Part shown: positions 45,629-55,504 of the stretch, piece after piece
How positions within the stretch are numbered: position 1 is the first letter of the stretch
How the letters are laid out: each line of letters starts with the position of its first letter
Source of the DNA: Methanobrevibacter sp. V74
GTDB lineage: Archaea; Methanobacteriota; Methanobacteria; Methanobacteriales; Methanobacteriaceae
DNA length: 64,000 nt
Assembly (NCBI RefSeq): GCF_963082495.1
Contig: NZ_CAUJAN010000006.1
Location: forward strand, 1 to 64,000
Direction of reading: 5' to 3'
Notes under the pieces: generated by a model
What the model was told of the DNA's origin: nothing
What the model saw: the letters and a program-made list of their open reading frames with translations, nothing else
Database searches by the model: none
Made by a program: the position numbers and the translations under genes

Positions 45629-47383
45629 CATTCCTAGAAACTTAAGATTTTTTATTTTTTTTATCATTGTTTATTCATTGAAAATTGCTAATTTTGATTT
45701 ATTTTGCTTTAATCAGTTATTATTTATTTTAATACTTTATTAATTAATTTTAATTTATTTATATCTAATTTTAATAATTATTAATAGTTTATTTTAAATA
45801 TTATTAATTATATATATATTTATATAAGTAATTAAAGTTTTTTAATCATGAATTTATTTGATTGGGGGTTGGATTGATGTATTCTTATGATAGATTTGTC
45901 AAAGATTTTTTCAGTTTATTTGATGTTTTTATATCTGAAAAATATGTAACTGAAGATAATAAGTTTATTAGAGATAGAAAAATGACTCAAAAAGAGTATA
46001 CAACATTTATTCTTTCTCAAAGAAGCTGTACATCTTATATTGAAACGATTAGATTTTTCACAATAGGATTGAATAAGAAGTTTAAAACAATTTCTAGCCA
46101 AGGAATTGGAAAACAAAGAATGTTCATTGACCCAAAAGTTTTTATTGATATGAATGAATCTTTTATTGACCAATTATATGGCAAATATTCTGGATTTTCA
46201 AAATTTAAAGGATATATTGTTAGTGCTTGTGATGGAAGTATTATTGATCTTCCCAATGTTACTTTAACACGTGAAGAATTCCCTGTTGGTGATGAAAACC
46301 TGTTAAAAGAAAAAGAATTCGTGCAAGAGTTTCATGTCTTTTAGACGTTCATTCTAAACATATTTTAACAGCAAAAATTGTTGAAACAACAATAAATGAA
46401 GTAGATTTAGCAATTGAACATTTAGAGAACTTAAAACAAAGATTAAACATTACAAAATTAATTACCATTTACGATCGAGGATATTCATCAATCGAACTCA
46501 TGGCAAAAACCATTGATTTAAACTCTAAATTTTTAATAAGACTACCAAAAAATGTATTTAGACATTTAATCAAACAAATGAAGACTAATGATGAAATTAT
46601 AAAAATAAATTTAACAAATAATAGATTAAGTCATTTTGATGATGAAAATTTAAAAGAAAAAGCAAGAAAGATGGGGCGATTAGAAATTCGCATAGCATTA
46701 GTAGATATTGGTAAGAACGAACCTGAAATACTTGCAACAAATTTAACATCTGAAGAATTCTCAACAGAAGATTTAAAAGAATTATATGGTAAAAGATGGG
46801 CAGTTGAAACTGGATTTGACAGATTAAAAAATTTAATCGAAATCGAAGATTTCAGCGGAATTCGAAGAACAATAATCGAACAAGATTTTCACGCCCACAT
46901 ATTCGTTTATAACCTAGCAATGACAATTAAAAATCATGCAGAAAACAATATAACAAGAATACCCAGAAATAAAGATGAAAAAATAATTTATCAGTCGAAT
47001 TTCGCAAAAATAACGGGAAACATCTATTTATTCTTATTTGACCTAATATTTGAAACGCAAACGAAAAGAGAGCAAATAATCGATTTTATAGTAAAAGAAG
47101 CATCTAAAGAACTAATACAATATAAAGAAAATCAATACAATAATAAAGAACGAAAAACCCCGGATGTTTATAATAAACATCCAGGAAACAAGAAAAAACA
47201 CACTAATCAAATAATTTCACCAAAAATTAGTGAGTTTTCACATCTTGTTTAATAGTTCTGTTCACAAATCATATAAAAAACTTACGAAAATCAAATCCTA
47301 ATCCCAAAATAATATAACAACGTTATCAAATAAACAGAATTAATAAAAAATTTCACATGAAAAATCTTAAGTTTCTAGGAATG
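45629..47383 (+). mobile_element. IS4-type insertion sequence with perfect 24-bp ends
   Basis: About 1.75 kb bounded by a perfect 24-bp inverted repeat. The left end starts CATTCCTAGAAACTTAAG (45629-45652) and its exact complement lies at 47360-47383. It contains one DDE transposase gene. The flanks share only CTT, so the target duplication is short or unclear. The intact ends suggest recent arrival, although the transposase frame is broken. A fragment of a diverged copy lies at 55505-55882. Confidence 0.85.
45877..47252 (+). pseudogene. IS4-type DDE transposase, frameshifted
   Basis: Two frames make one transposase of about 458 residues. Seen are the first catalytic Asp in IVSACDGSIIDLPN, the second in ITIYDRGYSSIELM, and the Y-x2-R-x3-E-x6-K signature in ELYGKRWAVETGFDRLKN. 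The first frame ends at 46344; the true continuation (RIRARVSCLLDVHSKHILTA) is in the -1 phase. One extra A in the A-run near 46312-46316 repairs it. The local sequence is not a standard slippery heptamer, so I regard it as a mutation or read error rather than programmed frameshifting. ATG 45877 follows a GGGGGTTGGA stretch. Confidence 0.8.
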
Positions 47384-47522
47384 CTTTTAATCTTCCATGA
47401 ATTTCATAGTATTCAAGCCATTCTTTAATTTCTACCTCATCAATAATGGAATTAATAATCTTATCCTGCAAGGAATGTGCATTATGTTTTGAATAATTCA
47501 ACTGAAAACATTCAGTATTAAC
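47384..47522 (-). pseudogene. C-terminal remnant of an unknown gene cut by the IS4-type element
   Basis: On the minus strand an open frame runs from the 37-bp direct repeat to the IS end, encoding SLQDKIINSIIDEVEIKEWL and EYYEIHGRLK. If the IS is removed with one copy of CTT it ends one codon later at a stop. It has a coding-like helical character but no family I recognise. It may be the neighbour that once stood upstream of the helicase-nuclease gene. Confidence 0.35.
47486..47522. repeat. 37-bp direct repeat, left copy
   Basis: Identical over 37 bases to 50955-50991. It flanks, with the right copy, a 3.4-kb segment carrying the truncated transposase and the third adhesin. In one phase the repeat encodes VLNNSTENIQY, which would join in frame (apart from one stop codon) to the QKEIVTYGG start of the helicase pseudogene. 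It may therefore be the duplicated 5' end of that gene. Confidence 0.85.
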
Positions 47523-48583
47523 TTAATTGGAGAACATTATGTTTAGAAGAAGGATTTCCAATTAGAGTAAAAATTAAACGATATTTTTGCCACGATTGCG
47601 GAAAAAAATCTCAAGCAGAGTTTACAGGATTCTATGATAAATTCTGTAATTTATCCAATGATTTCAAAAATAAAATAATTAATGCCCGTGAAAACAGTTG
47701 GATATCTCTAAGAAATATTAAAAGACTCATTAAAGACTGGTTTGGAATTAAAGTGTCTCATGAAACCATAAGAAAAGCTTTATTGGTCGAAGGTGAATTT
47801 TATTATTTCAACGATGAGTTGAAATTGTCTGGATATTACGGATATGACGAACAGTGGGAGAGAGTTAACGGAAACTGGGTTTACTACCTTGTACTCTTTG
47901 ATTTAGTCAATAACGTACCTGTGGCATCGATGCTAACTGAAATATTAAATGAGAATGTAATTGAAAATTTTATTTATATGAGTATTCCTTTTAAAGACCG
48001 TGTTGCAATTGTTACGGATTTAAAAACGGAATATGATAAAATAATGAGCAAATTAGGATTTATTCACCAACATTGTACTTTTCACTTGGAAAAAAACATT
48101 AAAAGTAACATGGAAAAGAAAATAAACAAAAATATGACTAATTATCGCTTTGAATTAAAAAATACTCATCCTAAATACTCTGATGACAATCTTGATGAAA
48201 TTATAAAAAAGAAAAAAGAAGAAGTAAAAAAAGAAATATGGAAATATATTGCTGAATTTATGAAATTATTTAAACAACCAACCTTTGATGAAGCAATTGA
48301 GTATATAAAATTTTTAAAAGATGAAATAAAATATTATCCAGAACATTTGGCCAAGTATCTAAAAAAGAATTTTTTCCCAGAATACAGAAAATTCCTAAGA
48401 TTCCTTGAAGATGATTATAAAAGACATTTAGAACCAACAAATAATAAATTAGAAAATTTCAATGGCAATACAATGCCAAAATACGAAAAAAGAAGTTATA
48501 GGACTATGCAAGGATTATGGAGTGCATTAATGCATAAAAACGATGGTTGGACAAAAAGAAGAAATGAAGACCTAACAAATTGA
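47523..48583 (+). pseudogene. ISM1-like transposase, 5'-truncated
   Basis: An open frame from 47528 to the stop at 48583 encodes about 351 residues without an N-terminal start; an internal ATG at 47753 gives only 276. Seen are the end of a zinc finger (IKRYFCHDCGKKSQAEF), an HTH-like part (RNIKRLIKDWFGIKVSHETI), the DDE residues in YYGYDEQWERVNGNW, AIVTDLKTEYDKIM and NKLENFNGN, and the conserved HQHCTFHLEKN. It resembles the ISM1-type transposases first described in Methanobrevibacter smithii. The N-terminus was lost at the junction with the 37-bp repeat. No terminal repeats are evident. Confidence 0.7.
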
Positions 48584-48716
48584 CAGTCCCAGGTTGATTC
48601 AGAACAGTTAATTATTTATAGATGATTGTATAGAATCATTATTAATTATTTAAATATTATATTGATTCAATTTCATTTAATTATGAAAATATTAAGATCC
48701 GGAGGATTGATATAAA

Positions 48717-50903
48717 ATGATTAAGAATTTAAATAAAGTTATAATAGTGTTTTTATTTTTAATATTTTTATCTATTTCAGTTGTTTCAGCACAAGACAAT
48801 GCAACATCTGAAATAGATTTAAGTGAAAATACTACAATTTTAGAAGTTGAAGCTGATGATAAATTAAATGTTGAAATGAACAAAAGCGATTTAAAAGGAT
48901 CTACTTCAACATTTACTGATTTGCAAAACATAATCAATGGTGCAAGTTCTGGTAGTACAATAACTCTAAATAAAGACTATACATATGTATTTGGAGATAA
49001 TGCGATAATAATTAATAAACCTTTAACTATTGATGGTAAAAACCATGTACTTAACGGAAGATTAGCTACACGAATATTCTGGATAGGTGACAATCAAGTC
49101 ACATTAAAAAATATAAGATTCATAAATGCTAATAATACTCAAACAGATTGGGGTGGTGCCATTGACTGGTTTGGAGATAATGTTAATTTAGAAAATTGTT
49201 ACTTTGAAAATAACCACGCACGTAAACTTGGTGGTGCTATTTACTTACATGGAACACAAGGCAATATAAAAAACTGCACTTTTAACAATAACCATGCAGA
49301 TGTTGGTGGTGCTGTTTATTGGAATGGTAATAATGGTAAATTAAGTGCTTGTTCTTTTAATAATAATCATGCAGATGGGTATGGTGGTGCTGTTTATTGG
49401 CATGGTGATAATGGTTTTTTAAGTGCTTGTTCTTTTGTTAATAACCATGCTAAATGGTATGGTGGTGCTGTTTATTGGAATGGTAATAATGGTAAATTAA
49501 GTGCTTGTTCTTTTAATAATAACCATGCAAAGTATGAAGGTGCTGTTAAATGGACTGGTAATCATGGTAAATTAAAGAATTGTTCTTTTGTTAATAACCA
49601 TGCAGATGATGATGGTGGTGCTGTTTGTTGGACTGGTGCTAATGGTTTTTTAAGTGCTTGTTCTTTTGTTAATAATCATGCAGATGCTGGTGGTGGTGCT
49701 GTTTGGTGGACTGGTGATAATGGTTTTTTAAGTGCTTGTTCTTTTGTTAATAACCATGCTAAATGGGGTGGTGCTGTTTTTTGGGATGGTGATAATGGTA
49801 AATTAAGTAGTTGTTCTTTTGTTAATAACCATGCTAAAAAATTTAAAGGTAATGTTATTTATTGGTTTAAGTCAGGTGATATATTTGCTTGTACTTTTAG
49901 TGTATTTCGTCCTAAAAATACAAACACTGTTACTGTTAATAACTTAATTTACTACGAAAAAAATAATTACAATGTTAATTACTATGAAAATGGTAATAAA
50001 ATCCTTAATAGTGGGATAAATAAGAATATTACTTTTTTTAATTTAAACAGTGGAAAACACACTATTAAAATGATTTATAAAAAAGACGGTAATGATTTGA
50101 CTAATGATTTAATTATTACTGGTGATTCTTATTTAAATTCTAATAATGTGTATATGTTTTATAATGATGGGACAAAATATAAGGTAAAATTAACAGACTA
50201 CCAAGGAAAACCTTTAATTTATAAAAATCTTCAAATCACAATCAAAAATAAAAAATACAACCTAAAAACAGACAAATATGGCTATGCTACTATACTTCTC
50301 AAACAAAAACCTGGACAATACTCAATAATAGCTAAATTCAATGGAGATAAAGATTATGGTCCAAGCACCTTCACAACCAAGATAAAAATCTTAAAATCCC
50401 CAATAACAAAAAATAAAAACTTAAAAATTTATTTCATGGGTGGAACATTTAAAGTACAAATAATACATGCAAATGGTAAAAATGTAGGCGCTGGAAAAAC
50501 AGTAAAATTCACAATATCAGGAAAAACATACACCAAAAAAACAGACAAAAATGGATACGCAAGCCTAAAAATCACACAAAAACCAAAAACACACACCATA
50601 ACCACAAAATACACCAAATTCATCACAAAAAATAAAATCACAATCCAACCACTACTAACAGCAAAAAACATCATAAAGAAAAAAACAAAAACAACAAAAT
50701 TCCAGGCCAAACTAGTAAACACAAAAGGAAAACCACAAGCAAAAAAGAAAATAACATTTAAATTCAAAGGAAAAAAATACAAAAAACTAACAAACAAAAA
50801 AGGAATAGCCACACTAAAAATCAAAAACCTAAAAAAAGGCAAATACAACATCTACACACAATACACCAAATCAAAAATAAAAAACACAATAACAATCAAA
50901 TAA
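48717..50903 (+). CDS. Adhesin-like protein with near-identical beta-helix rungs
   Basis: 728 residues. A signal peptide spans 1-24 (VIIVFLFLIFLSISVVSA). A beta-helix covers about 60-390 with eight to nine near-identical rungs of about 24 residues (NNHADxGGAVYWNGNNGKLS plus ACSF), visible as roughly 72-base repeats at about 49240-49850. Ig-like units follow (YKVKLTDYQGKPLIYKNLQI; VKFTISGKTYTKKTDKNGYA), and a Lys-rich C-terminal domain without a membrane anchor, like the first adhesin. GGAGG lies 11 bases before the ATG. Codon choice switches sharply near 50200. It lies between 37-bp direct repeats inside the island. Confidence 0.85.
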   Translation: MIKNLNKVIIVFLFLIFLSISVVSAQDNATSEIDLSENTTILEVEADDKLNVEMNKSDLKGSTSTFTDLQNIINGASSGSTITLNKDYTYVFGDNAIIINKPLTIDGKNHVLNGRLATRIFWIGDNQVTLKNIRFINANNTQTDWGGAIDWFGDNVNLENCYFENNHARKLGGAIYLHGTQGNIKNCTFNNNHADVGGAVYWNGNNGKLSACSFNNNHADGYGGAVYWHGDNGFLSACSFVNNHAKWYGGAVYWNGNNGKLSACSFNNNHAKYEGAVKWTGNHGKLKNCSFVNNHADDDGGAVCWTGANGFLSACSFVNNHADAGGGAVWWTGDNGFLSACSFVNNHAKWGGAVFWDGDNGKLSSCSFVNNHAKKFKGNVIYWFKSGDIFACTFSVFRPKNTNTVTVNNLIYYEKNNYNVNYYENGNKILNSGINKNITFFNLNSGKHTIKMIYKKDGNDLTNDLIITGDSYLNSNNVYMFYNDGTKYKVKLTDYQGKPLIYKNLQITIKNKKYNLKTDKYGYATILLKQKPGQYSIIAKFNGDKDYGPSTFTTKIKILKSPITKNKNLKIYFMGGTFKVQIIHANGKNVGAGKTVKFTISGKTYTKKTDKNGYASLKITQKPKTHTITTKYTKFITKNKITIQPLLTAKNIIKKKTKTTKFQAKLVNTKGKPQAKKKITFKFKGKKYKKLTNKKGIATLKIKNLKKGKYNIYTQYTKSKIKNTITIK
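49240..49855 (+). repeat. Tandem coding repeats of about 72 bases
   Basis: Eight or so units encoding CSFxNNHAxxxGGAVYWxGxNGxLSA. Phrases such as GGTGGTGCTGTTTATTGG recur almost unchanged, pointing to recent slippage or gene conversion and to likely copy-number variation between strains. Confidence 0.8.
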
Positions 50904-50912
50904 AAAAAAAAG

Positions 50913-50955
50913 AATAAGGAACCACCAATACTTCCTTATTTTAACCTTTTTTTAG
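50913..50955 (+). terminator. Terminator of the third adhesin
   Basis: A 9-bp stem (AATAAGGAA/TTCCTTATT, 10-base loop) follows ten bases after the adhesin stop and leads into a run of seven T. Confidence 0.6.
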
Positions 50956-50991
50956 TTTTGAATAATTCAACTGAAAACATTCAGTATTAAC
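50955..50991. repeat. 37-bp direct repeat, right copy
   Basis: Identical to 47486-47522. It ends where the reading frame of the helicase-nuclease pseudogene begins, so it is both the right edge of the 3.4-kb segment and the probable 5' end of that gene. Confidence 0.85.
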
Positions 50992-52747
50992 AGAAAGAGA
51001 TTGTTACTTATGGGGGAAATAAGTTTTTAAGCATAGAAGCGGGGTCGGGTGTAGGCAAAACCCGTGTTTTAATTGAAAAAGTTAATTATATGGTAAATGA
51101 GTTAGGGGGTGGATCCTAAATCATTGCTAATTGTCACTTTTTCAACTAAAGCTGCAGATGAACTTCGAGAGAGATTGTCTGAAGGTGATTTGTTAAAAAG
51201 TGATGTTCAAAAGATGCATATATCAACTATTCACTCTTTTTGCGAAAAGATACTTGAAGAAAATGGTCATGTTGGTTTAAATATCATTTCAGACGATGCC
51301 GGTGAGAAAAACTTGTTGTTCATTGGAAAGCATATGGAAGAGCTTGGATTTGTTAAAGAATGTTACATGTCAAGTAGCAACATCAAATATATTGCCAATA
51401 AATATAAATGAATATTGCTCTTTCAGTGTTGACACAGATAAGTTAATTGATTATATCACAGAAAATAGGCCAGTCAGCGAGGGATATGTCCACTTTTGTC
51501 CGTGAGCGAATGGAATTAAATGATGGAGAATATCCTCATGATGAAGTTCGAAAAAATGATGAGTTTAAAGAGTCCAAGTATAATGCACAATATCTGCAAA
51601 TCGCCAAATCCTATCCGATTTATGAAAAATATCTTAAAGCGCGAAAAAGCAATTGACTTTGCACATCTACAAAAGGATGCATTAGAAATTGTCAAAAAAG
51701 ATGGATTTAAAACACAGTTCACCAACATACTAATTGATGAGTTTCAAGATACAGATCCTATGCAGATGGAATTGTTTGAGTATCTGATGAAACAAGCAAA
51801 ATCATTTACAGTAGTAGGTGACATTAATCAAAGCATATATGGATTTAGAGGTTCAAACATTAATCCATTTACATATTTAGCTAAATATCATAAAGATAAA
51901 TTCGAGTTTAAAAGCCTGACCACTAATTATCGCTCCACTCATGAAATCATCGATGTGTCTGAAGATTTCATTAAACATCAAAGACCAGTTGAATCCGCAC
52001 TTGGAAAGGCTCAATGTGGTCGTGATGTAAAATAATCATGTTTATTATTCTTTAAATAACTATGATGCTAAAAATTAATCGACTAAAGAATCATCACTTG
52101 ATAGTGAAGCTGAAAACATTGTAAATATCATTAAATATTTGATTGAAAATGAAAAAATCAATAGATTGTCCGATATTGGCATTCTATTTCGTTCTCTTTC
52201 AAAAAGTACCTCACGATGTATCGGACCATTGCTTGAAAAATTAGAAGCGGAAAATATTAAATTTCAGGTCAATAACAATGATTTAATCAGTCAGGATGAA
52301 ATTAAGTCAATTTTAACACTCTTTCACCATCTGGTTTCAGATGATGATCCTCATAGTCACAGGTTTAATAGATGGGAAAAAGACTGGCTGAATTTAAAGG
52401 CATATGCCAATCAGGTCTTGTTCAATTTATCTGATGAGACAAAAGAGATACTGATTAGCTTGCAGAATAAATTTGAAGAGGATGTTGTCAGGGCTGAAAA
52501 TTATTTTTGGCTAAAAGACCATAATAGAGGAGGTAAAAAATCCTTCAAAACAGTATTTGCCCGTGATGAGGAAATGCTCATTAAAATATTTAATAGTGTT
52601 ACAAGGCCGGTTTTAACAAACGATAACCTAATTGAATATGGTATTGAAAATGAAGATGATTTGGAATTCTTTAGAAAATTAAATGAATTTAAAGACTCAT
52701 TGTACTCTGAGGATGTTAAATTCTATGACAGGCCAACAGTTTCTGAG

Positions 52748-52841
52748 GTTTATTTAAAACTATTAACTGATGTTACGCTTGTGCCTTTTCTTAATTGCCT
52801 TCAAAAGCTCTCGTTTATTTAAAACTATTAACTGATGTTAC
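52748..52841 (+). repeat. CRISPR-like unit: 29-bp duplication around 36 bp of foreign DNA
   Basis: Bases 52748-52776 are repeated exactly at 52813-52841, with 36 unrelated bases (52777-52812) between. Removing one copy and the insert restores SEVYLKLLTDVTGYLSED. The 65-bp gain breaks the frame. The insert has about 42% G+C, above the host. Confidence 0.85.
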
Positions 52842-52965
52842 CGGTTATTTGTCTGAAGATTTAATCTTAAGTGATGAAGGAGATATTATAATTAACAACC
52901 TCTCAAAAATTACAGGTTCTCTTCAAACATTTGTTGACGTTAAGTTCAACCGGGACATTAGAGGT

Positions 52966-53062
52966 GCATTTTGGTTTGTATATAGAACCATTGAAGAATG
53001 GTCTGTTTTACAAACCCCTGCCGAATCTACCGCATTTTGGTTTGTATATAGAACCATTGAAG
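52966..53062 (+). repeat. CRISPR-like unit: 31-bp duplication around 35 bp of foreign DNA
   Basis: Bases 52966-52996 are repeated exactly at 53032-53062, with 35 unrelated bases (52997-53031) between. Removing 66 bp restores GAFWFVYRTIEGHSAYSDES. The insert has about 46% G+C. It lies only 125 bases after the first such unit. Confidence 0.85.
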
Positions 53063-54158
53063 GACATTCGGCTTATTCTGATGAAAGTGATGCCATTCAA
53101 ATAATGACTGTCCATCAGTCAAAAGGATTAGAATTCCCGGTTGTTATTATTCCCTCTCTGAAAAAAGACAATTTCCCAATGAAATATATCGATCCAAATC
53201 CAGATAATGGATGGATTTTTGGCCAGCCCGTTTATTACACTCCTGATGACTGTTTAAATTATCCCAAATTTGATAAGGAATTCGGGCCTGAACTGTCTCA
53301 TAATATGGAAGAGGAAAGAGTTATTTATGTTGCAATGACTCGTGCAGAGGATACATTAATATTGTCTTCATTAGTGGAGGATATGAACCAGTCAAATCAA
53401 ATCGCAATTGAACAAAGTGAATTTGAAAGACTTCCAAAAGGTCCGGACTGCATAGAAAAATGCAATTAATGAAAACTTAAATAAATGCAAATTAATTGAC
53501 CCTGAAGATATGGACATCAATGTGGTGTATTGCAGGAAGGATGAAGAGGATGATGAATACTGTGTTGATTTAAGCTTCACTGCTTTGGAAAATTATAATA
53601 ATTGTCCATTTAGATATAAAACTAGCTAACGGAGTTAATTTCACCATATCTGAAAAACAGGAGATTGATGATGGGATTTTTGCCCACTATACACTTGAAG
53701 TTATCAACAAAAAAATAATTAATAATGGCAATGTCTTTATTGGTGAGGATGAGGTTGTTAAAACAATAGAGGAATTATTTGAAAATTCAAATGATGAGTT
53801 AAAAGAAGAGGATCCTGTTGGGTATGAAAAACAACTTAACGAAATAATCGGCAACATTTATTCATTATTATAAAAATTACGGTAAAAATATAAAAATACT
53901 TGATAGTGAATATCCCTTCTATTTAAAAGACAGAAACTATGCCCTTAATGGAGTCATTGATTTAATCTATGAAATTGATGGTAAATTGGGCATTATTGAT
54001 TATAAGAATACTCGCTTAGAGGCCAAATACAAAGATAAATTTAAAAAGCAACTTCATTTATATGTATTGGCATTAAGGGACCAAAATCATGAATATGAAG
54101 GTAAGGAAATTAGCGAACTTAAAGTTTACACTATTATAATTACTAACCAAACTTTTAT

Positions 54159-55504
54159 TATAGATGACTGACAAATTATAAAATATGTCTGGAAAATCTA
54201 AAATTGATGTTTTTAATAAAATGACTAAAACCGCATTAGATGAGGAAATCAGCAATTATGTGGCTTATCATAGGTATTATCAAAGATTGATTGCTGTTAA
54301 AATTGTTAGTGAAGGCAATACAATAACTGATGCTGCGAATATTCTAGGAAAATCATATCAAACAGTTCACAGATGGATTAAAACATGTGAATCTGAAGGA
54401 TTGGAAGGTTTAAAACCTTCTTTTGGTGGTGGAAGGCCATCAAAATTAACTTATGATCAACTAATTGAATTAGACAAAATCATTGAAAAAACACCAAATA
54501 TGTCAATGAAAGATGTACATCTTCTTGTTAATGAAAAATTTAATGTAGATTACAGTTTAAAACAAATAGGAAAAATTGTAAAGAAATTAGGATACAATTA
54601 CAGCAAAGCATATCCTAAATTTTCAAAATCCCCTGAAGATGCTGAAGAACAGTTAAAAAAAACTTAGAAGAACATAACGTAACAACACGATATTATAGTC
54701 TTATTTGATGAAGCATCATTCCAAAATGAACCCTACACTCAAAAATCACTATATAAAAAAGGAACCAAACACACACAAACTGTAAATCCATACAAATTCA
54801 AAATCAACGCCATTGGATCACTAACAATAAATGGAAATTCGACCATCACAATCACAAATTCATCAACAGCACCAGAAATTGCAATAGCACTTCTAGAATT
54901 AAGAATAGCAAATACAAACAACAAAAATACAGTAAAAATATTAAATAAAATAATATTCGATGTTAATCTAACTGATGAAGATATAGATAAAATATTAATG
55001 AAAAACAACAAAGATAATGAAGTTTTCGCAGCAAAAATTTTAAAAACATTAGAAAAATATAAGGACAATACCACCTCAACAATCGCTAGAATCATTGGAA
55101 AACACTGCAATAGAGAATTACTCAACAATGTGAAAAAAAGAAGAGAAATAAGACGAAAAATAACTTTAAATCTGTTACAAAAAGAAGACATTAATAACAA
55201 AAATGCAAACCGAATAAAGAATATGTTTAATTCTAGATAATTATAGCGTCCACAAGTCTGCATTCATCAAAAAATAGCATTACATCTTATTGAATTAATA
55301 TACCTCCCACCATACTCTCCTCACTTAAATCCAATTGAACAAATATGGAGACAAATAAAAAGAAAAATAAAACATTATTATCTTGAATCAAAAGAATTTC
55401 TGCGAGATTTAACAATAGAAACGTATAATGAATCGATTTCTGAAACAAAAGTTCATGACAAATGGCTCGAAACATTTATACCAAAAATTTGGTAATTAAC
55501 TATA
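54159..55504 (+). mobile_element. IS630-type insertion sequence
   Basis: About 1.34 kb. Imperfect inverted ends begin TATAG at 54159 and its complement CTATA ends at 55504 (about 15 of 22 bases match), with TA at each border, the target of IS630/mariner elements. On the left it cuts the helicase-nuclease pseudogene; on the right it cuts the remnant IS4-type element. It is therefore younger than both. Confidence 0.75.
54185..55495 (+). pseudogene. IS630-type transposase, multiply frameshifted
   Basis: The N-terminal HTH part (160 residues in one frame: AANILGKSYQTVHRWIKTCE, GGGRPSKLTYDQLIEL) ends at a stop at 54667. The DDE part continues in other phases: IIVLFDEASFQNEPYTQKSL (first Asp), ILDNYSVHKSAFIKK (second Asp), YLPPYSPHLNPIEQIWRQIK (Glu). 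Frames break at an A8 run near 54656, near 54700, near 55233, and at an A6 run near 55270. Adding an A to the two runs restores the family reading at those sites. The element is probably immobile unless helped in trans. Confidence 0.8.

Follow-up and report, generated by a model that had tools for sequence, protein, structure and literature searches.

Results

Two repeat-insert-repeat units in a helicase pseudogene

The stretch of DNA analysed here, referred to below as the window, comprises the first 64,000 nucleotides of contig C6 (C6:1-64000) in the 2.30-Mb assembly of Methanobrevibacter sp. V74 (genome G000, 15 contigs). It carries a fragment of a helicase/nuclease pseudogene, the domains of which were assigned from the copy of this gene on contig C7 and from the window itself, and within the fragment lie two short units, each consisting of an insert between two copies of the same sequence. 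The relevant features are as follows.

47486..47522, minus strand: 37-nt repeat, second copy in the window
47523..50954, no strand assigned: 3,432-bp segment between the two window repeats, with a 728-aa adhesin-like gene at 48717-50903
50955..50991, minus strand: 37-nt repeat with the same sequence as the one after cas1 on C7
50992..54136, plus strand: UvrD-type helicase / PD-(D/E)XK nuclease pseudogene fragment, homologous to C7:1061-4073
52748..52776, plus strand: first copy of duplication 1, 29 bp; present once each on C7 and C5
52777..52812, plus strand: insert 1, 36 nt; found nowhere else in this genome or among 138 family genomes (own included) at up to three mismatches
52813..52841, plus strand: duplication 1, second copy, 29 bp
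52966..52996, plus strand: first copy of duplication 2, 31 bp or, alternatively read, 29 bp; one copy on C7, two on C5
52997..53031, plus strand: insert 2, 35 nt, derived from nrdD; 52998-53033 matches C4:306970-307005
53032..53062, plus strand: duplication 2, second copy, 31 bp
54137..54667, plus strand: element starting where helicase homology to C7 ends, with an ORF at 54185-54667

Unit 1 is an exact 29-bp direct repeat (52748-52776 = 52813-52841) around 36 bp, and unit 2 an exact 31-bp direct repeat (52966-52996 = 53032-53062) around 35 bp, giving unit sizes of 65 and 66 bp and an exact duplication of the target on both sides of each insert. The first-pass annotation had described two such units within 52748-53062, and both their coordinates and their exactness were confirmed, as was its remark that the inserts are GC-richer than the host gene (41.7% for insert 1 and 45.7% for insert 2, the helicase piece having 32.4%). 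For unit 2 the boundary can be drawn in more than one way, as the nrdD match spans 52998-53033 and allows an alternative reading in which 29 bp are duplicated around 37 nt. Exact direct repeats of at least 20 bp at offsets of 45-120 were found in none of 20 control windows shuffled in 5-base blocks and five times in the real window, where three of them fall in tandem repeats of an adhesin gene and the remaining two are the units themselves. A transposon or MITE origin of the units was rejected on the grounds that they have no inverted ends, no common insert and differing duplications; inverted repeats of at least 12 bp, such as most transposon ends would give, were absent from 52400-53400. The ORF of the element downstream of the pseudogene (54185-54667) encodes helix-turn-helix domains, from which we infer that the element is transposase-like.

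Paralogous copies reveal empty insertion sites

This part of the helicase gene is present in the genome in three near-identical versions, located on C5, C6 (the window) and C7. In the C7 copy, which is 99% identical, both sites are empty and each of the duplicated sequences is present once; the C5 copy carries insert 2 but has an empty site 1, and in the C6 copy both sites are filled. Since C7 lacks both inserts and C5 lacks insert 1, we conclude that the units arose in two separate insertion events. The simplest order would place insertion 2 first, then the duplication between C5 and C6 of a ~10-kb segment, and insertion 1 last. The earlier expectation that deleting the inserts restores the helicase held locally, in that the empty C7 copy reads through both sites (399 aa), but failed for the gene as a whole: C7 is split elsewhere, and further changes break the gene in all three copies, the empty one on C7 included. 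C6:46-56 kb and C5:145-155 kb correspond to a duplicated block of ~10 kb, 95-99% identical by parts, that contains the adhesin, 37-nt repeats, the helicase fragment and the transposase-like element.

Insert 2 matches nrdD

Insert 2 (52998-53033) matches C4:306970-307005 with one mismatch in 36 nt, and the gene at this position scores as Pfam NRDD, the anaerobic ribonucleotide reductase (nrdD). When the genus was searched with insert 2, allowing up to three mismatches, 21 of 67 genomes contained a match and 46 did not. The closest match was the strain's own nrdD (one mismatch), with 20 other genomes at two to three mismatches. The mismatched base is T in insert 2 and in these 20 other matching genomes and A in the strain's own nrdD; the query carried T, and A-bearing genomes were less likely to appear among the matches. 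Judging from these alignments, insert 2 was probably taken from the nrdD of this lineage before the base change, or from that of a sister strain.

With up to three mismatches allowed, insert 1 matched nothing else in its own genome and nothing in the other family genomes searched (138 counting this one), and its 29-nt core had no exact match in IMG/VR. Among GenBank phages it gave two partial matches of 19-25 nt to unrelated phages (E 0.1-0.4), and the 315-bp stretch carrying both units had no match in plasmids.

Unit geometry compared with CRISPR arrays of the strain and the genus

The sole canonical CRISPR array found in this genome lies on C11 and consists of 48 repeats of 37 nt and 47 spacers, of which 31 are 36 nt, 14 are 35 nt, one is 34 nt and one is 27 nt long, so that the units mostly measure 72-73 bp. 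The insert lengths of 36 and 35 nt equal the commonest spacer lengths of this array. The contig itself (L015) is 5.2 kb long, carries cas1 and cas2 next to the 48 repeats and ends inside the array. We rejected the C11 spacers as a source or guide of the inserts, as none of the 47 matched the searched part of the genome (844 kb) with up to four mismatches.

The duplications of 29 and 31 bp differ from the 37-nt repeats of the strain, and a match to them was found only in relatives. All seven of the fetched loci of the same genus that encode a distant kind of Cas1 (L127-L133; 25-28% identity to the C7 Cas1) have repeats of 29-31 nt, with ends set by a consensus rule and uncertain by about one base, and spacers of mostly 34-39 nt. 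L127, the only one of these loci that was typed, is type I-B and encodes Cas8b1, Cas7/Cst2, Cas5b, Cas3, Cas6, Cas4, Cas1b and Cas2; L128-L133 are alike by geometry only. Repeats in five C11-kind loci of relatives are ~37 nt long (three of 37, and two of 34 and 26 that were shortened by the boundary rule). The window units have type I-B geometry: like the array of L127 they combine 29-31 nt with inserts of ~36 nt, but the repeat of that array is constant, whereas each unit in the window has its own duplicated target. The proposed agreement with host CRISPR unit size is therefore not borne out by the strain's own array, with its 37-nt repeats and 72-73-bp units, and stands for the relatives within the genus (29-31 plus ~36).

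Only two cas1 genes came up when this genome was searched for the Cas1 family, and neither reaches the cut-off score of the Cas1 model for type I-B. PF05107, a type I-B effector model, had no match in this genome, a result of little weight because the Cas7 of the relatives matches another model. When the duplicated targets were scored against repeats, the lowest fraction in 48 comparisons was 0.015, and no significant resemblance to any of the repeats tested emerged. A portion of PMC6895254 states that rulers inside type I-B, I-E and II-A repeats set the second attack. Since the second integration site is, in that portion of PMC6895254, set by a ruler in the repeat, the length of the duplication may change without one, and a 37-nt system acting on a target that lacks a ruler might also give a shorter duplication.

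Distribution of units in the genome and in relatives

We scanned 844 kb (~37% of the genome) for exact repeats of at least 20 bp at offsets of 30-399 and 50-89, dropping low-complexity repeats and leaving out the C11 array, and recognised no such unit other than those of the window and the C5 copy of unit 2. The first-pass annotation had proposed a scan for more 64-68-bp insertions with 28-32-bp duplications; apart from the C5 copy none emerged from the 844 kb. Two events lie within 315 bp and none was recognised elsewhere in the scanned sequence, a pattern not expected of a random process. The other pairs returned by the scan were the 37-nt repeat pair of C7, isolated pairs in L010, L023 and L030 (inserts of 52, 217 and 295 bp, respectively) and many pairs that, by eye, lie in tandem protein repeats, mostly of adhesins; among tandem repeats, pairs of similar size occur by chance (42+36 in L108 and 38+37 in L032). 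An array check of the same 844 kb detected no other CRISPR array. Likewise, no clear unit was found in 265 kb around 20 loci of relatives (repeats of at least 18 bp, offsets 45-119), where the scan returned one short pair (19+30 in L068) plus low-complexity and tandem repeats.

Two further repeated structures were observed in this genome. At L116:18063-18242 (C4, ~198.1 kb) four units with a 54-bp period combine a conserved part of 27-33 bp with a variable part and are probably a protein repeat. A MITE-like element of ~290 bp is present at 97-99% identity in the window (45629-45919), in L014 (14544-14838) and at seven other places.

The 37-nt repeats around the pseudogene and the cas2-cas1 locus on C7

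The helicase fragment starts directly at the 37-nt repeat 50955-50991. With up to three mismatches this repeat occurs at 14 places in the genome (two on C6, two on C5, eight on C7, one on C4 and one on C1), 11 of them identical. On C7 identical copies follow a cas2-cas1 locus (L014 = C7:58000-76000), where they begin at C7:67316 with the first copy 200 bp after cas1 and enclose segments of, in order, 335, 440, 2155, 2112 and 2676 bp. Of the first segment, 333 of the 335 bp match C3 at 98.8% and one of the two remaining bases differs, and the 440-bp segment matches C2 end-to-end at 97.7% with two gaps; both chromosomal copies fill the whole repeat-to-repeat space. In the third segment lies a gene with a Phage_Mu_F domain and an ADP-ribosyltransferase match below threshold, whose product shares 46% identity with that of a head gene of the methanogen virus vir080; at the DNA level the segment matches vir080 at 70% over one quarter of its length. 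This virus-like protein had no relative in IMG/VR by the method used, and neither had the C7-type Cas1. A search of a genome contig database with a 32-nt exact pattern of the repeat returned no match, and a search of the same database for the C7-type Cas1 returned 18 loci, in Methanobrevibacter or Methanosphaera records. A protein-coding role of the 37-nt repeat was rejected on in-frame stops in several lineages, read by eye. That a tyrosine recombinase encoded beside cas2 on C7 belongs with the system is not supported, given that it lies ~3 kb off in one relative and that none was seen by eye in 4 kb upstream of cas2 in another.

A Cas1 match of some kind was present in 71 of the 138 family genomes. 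Among the best 20 loci outside this genome, 13 contain a 37-nt repeat, specific to the lineage, in two or more copies, and the remaining seven have one copy, none that we found, or sequence that ends too soon after cas1. In all 14 arrays, own genome included, the first repeat lies 197-200 bp past the last coding base of cas1; these arrays were chosen for having at least two repeats, and repeat finding made no use of the distance to cas1. The leader before the first repeat contains blocks common to the arrays. Counting repeats with up to nine mismatches and excluding gaps of at least 4 kb, the 14 arrays comprise 44 segments that range from 204 to 3601 bp and add up to 53,467 bp; these lengths are far from the uniform short spacer length of CRISPR arrays. 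Inspection by eye of the ORFs listed for three C7-type loci turned up no recognisable effector gene.

Open frames in eight of the 44 segments, distributed over six of the 14 arrays, match two methanogen viruses (E<=1e-4); of the 46,127 bp that lie upstream of cas genes, a single stretch (L076) does so. The two viruses were chosen from matches of C7 segment 3 and of an L070 ORF; those two segments and the one with the like gene in L083 are therefore non-independent, and five segments remain. A small viral gene that adjoins the vir080 head gene has homologues in array segments of three host species, at L014:11950-12357, L070:5941-6321 and L083:14644-15030. Two segment ORFs of L074, one with an ADP-ribosyltransferase domain, had no match in GenBank phages. 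Repeat copies that differ from the first one sit distal to the identical ones in L070, L075, L077 and L081; in L067 one distal copy has one mismatch and another has three, and six of nine copies are inverted, and the other arrays contain no mismatched copy in the stretch examined. The array stretches searched from G043 and G039 had no good copies elsewhere in their single-contig genomes, and the best copy of that from G061 was 76% over ~218 bp, on contig C12 beside repeat-like sequence; these results count against a uniform self origin of the segments.

We read the 37-nt repeats as leader-ordered giant-spacer arrays that have grown by repeat duplication at the leader. Their anatomy, the repeat-to-repeat fit of the two self segments and the viral matches are direct observations, and on these we base the mode of growth, the enzyme and the function that we propose for them.

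Discussion

Our data suggest, with a probability of roughly 0.8, that Cas1-Cas2 produced the two units by full-site, off-target integration of spacers. The first-pass annotation had proposed off-target spacer acquisition, and the empty paralogous sites, the nrdD source and the CRISPR unit sizes of the genus support it. In this scheme a Cas1-Cas2 integrase took up pre-spacers of ~36 nt, of which one or both came from nrdD, and attached them to the two strands of a non-CRISPR target at points ~29-31 bp from each other; the target would then have been duplicated as the gaps were filled. We observe the exact target duplication, the empty sites, the two events, the nrdD origin and the genus-like sizes, and from these the enzyme and the reaction are deduced.

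The matching module is found in relatives, and the strain's own array has 37-nt repeats. By geometry the likeliest actor, at roughly even odds within the off-target explanation, is a type I-B module as in the sister species, perhaps since lost from this strain. The strain's own 37/36 system on C11 is a possible but clearly less probable candidate, and the C7 Cas1-Cas2 pair a more doubtful one still, a share that overlaps with our estimate for the alternative discussed next.

In this alternative, a sub-case of off-target integration, the C7 Cas1-Cas2, an apparent inserter of variable-length DNA at 37-nt repeats, made both units. The target segment does abut the 37-nt repeat of its system, and the segments near its cas1 include chromosomal copies, which would place self DNA at hand; nevertheless, none of the 44 segments in this genome and in relatives (204-3601 bp) comes near 36 bp, its repeat is 37 nt long and the 265 kb from 20 relatives' loci yielded no clear small unit, so that we regard this origin as unlikely. 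Far less probable is break repair that captured a small piece of DNA, with fill-in of a staggered break of ~30 nt and ligation of a short filler. Staggered ends would fit the target duplication, and insert 2 is a chromosomal fragment, but two independent events produced near-equal duplications (29 and 31) and fillers (36 and 35), whereas filler lengths should vary and these equal the strain's commonest spacer lengths. That the units are an assembly artefact or stem from mis-joined reads appears least credible of all. This idea draws on the 15 contigs, the three near-identical copies and the assembly-level nature of the data, and it is opposed by the presence of insert 2 on both C5 and C6, which differ by ~4-5% in the adjoining adhesin region, by the exact, CRISPR-sized breakpoints and by the derivation of an insert from a distant gene.

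In their 2018 study, Nivala, Shipman and Church reportedly saw the target duplicated into a new repeat-spacer-repeat unit, and off-target spacer integration has been proposed as one route by which new CRISPR loci come about. Overexpression of Cas1-Cas2 in E. coli led to the integration of spacers into non-array regions of the genome (Nivala, Shipman, Church 2018, as summarised in a passage of PMC11788318; a passage of PMC9456107 also cites this off-target integration study). The window resembles this non-canonical integration in that spacers enter non-array regions, but unlike the overexpressed E. coli enzyme it presents two natural events in an archaeal genome together with natural empty sites. 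Integration into non-CRISPR sites is likewise described for S. thermophilus Cas1-Cas2 in a portion of PMC6895254; those events involved a type II-A system acting on plasmids in vitro and are termed 'likely half-site' there. Our literature search, which covered sources other than bioRxiv preprints and most subscription papers, returned neither a natural off-target case in Methanobrevibacter nor arrays with gene-sized spacers. Integron cassette arrays hold gene-sized DNA between repeated sites. The C7 system is like them in this respect and unlike them in that identical 37-mers lie beside cas1-cas2 and two chromosomal fragments fill the repeat-to-repeat space.

Taking the two parts together, we lean slightly towards the view that Methanobrevibacter possesses an effector-less, CRISPR-derived memory in which Cas1-Cas2 captures viral and cellular DNA of 0.2-3.6 kb and stores it between 37-nt repeats that follow a conserved leader, with the newest piece in front; the window's helicase pseudogene would then be a piece stored in this way that was moved or copied together with its repeat, and the two units stray acquisitions in it. 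With the empty sites preserved in one genome, a natural case shows directly which DNA was inserted, in what order the events took place and what rule the duplication follows. Moreover, Cas1-Cas2 loci that seemingly store gene-sized fragments would widen the known scope of the CRISPR integrase, and a memory made of kilobase pieces raises the question of its purpose.
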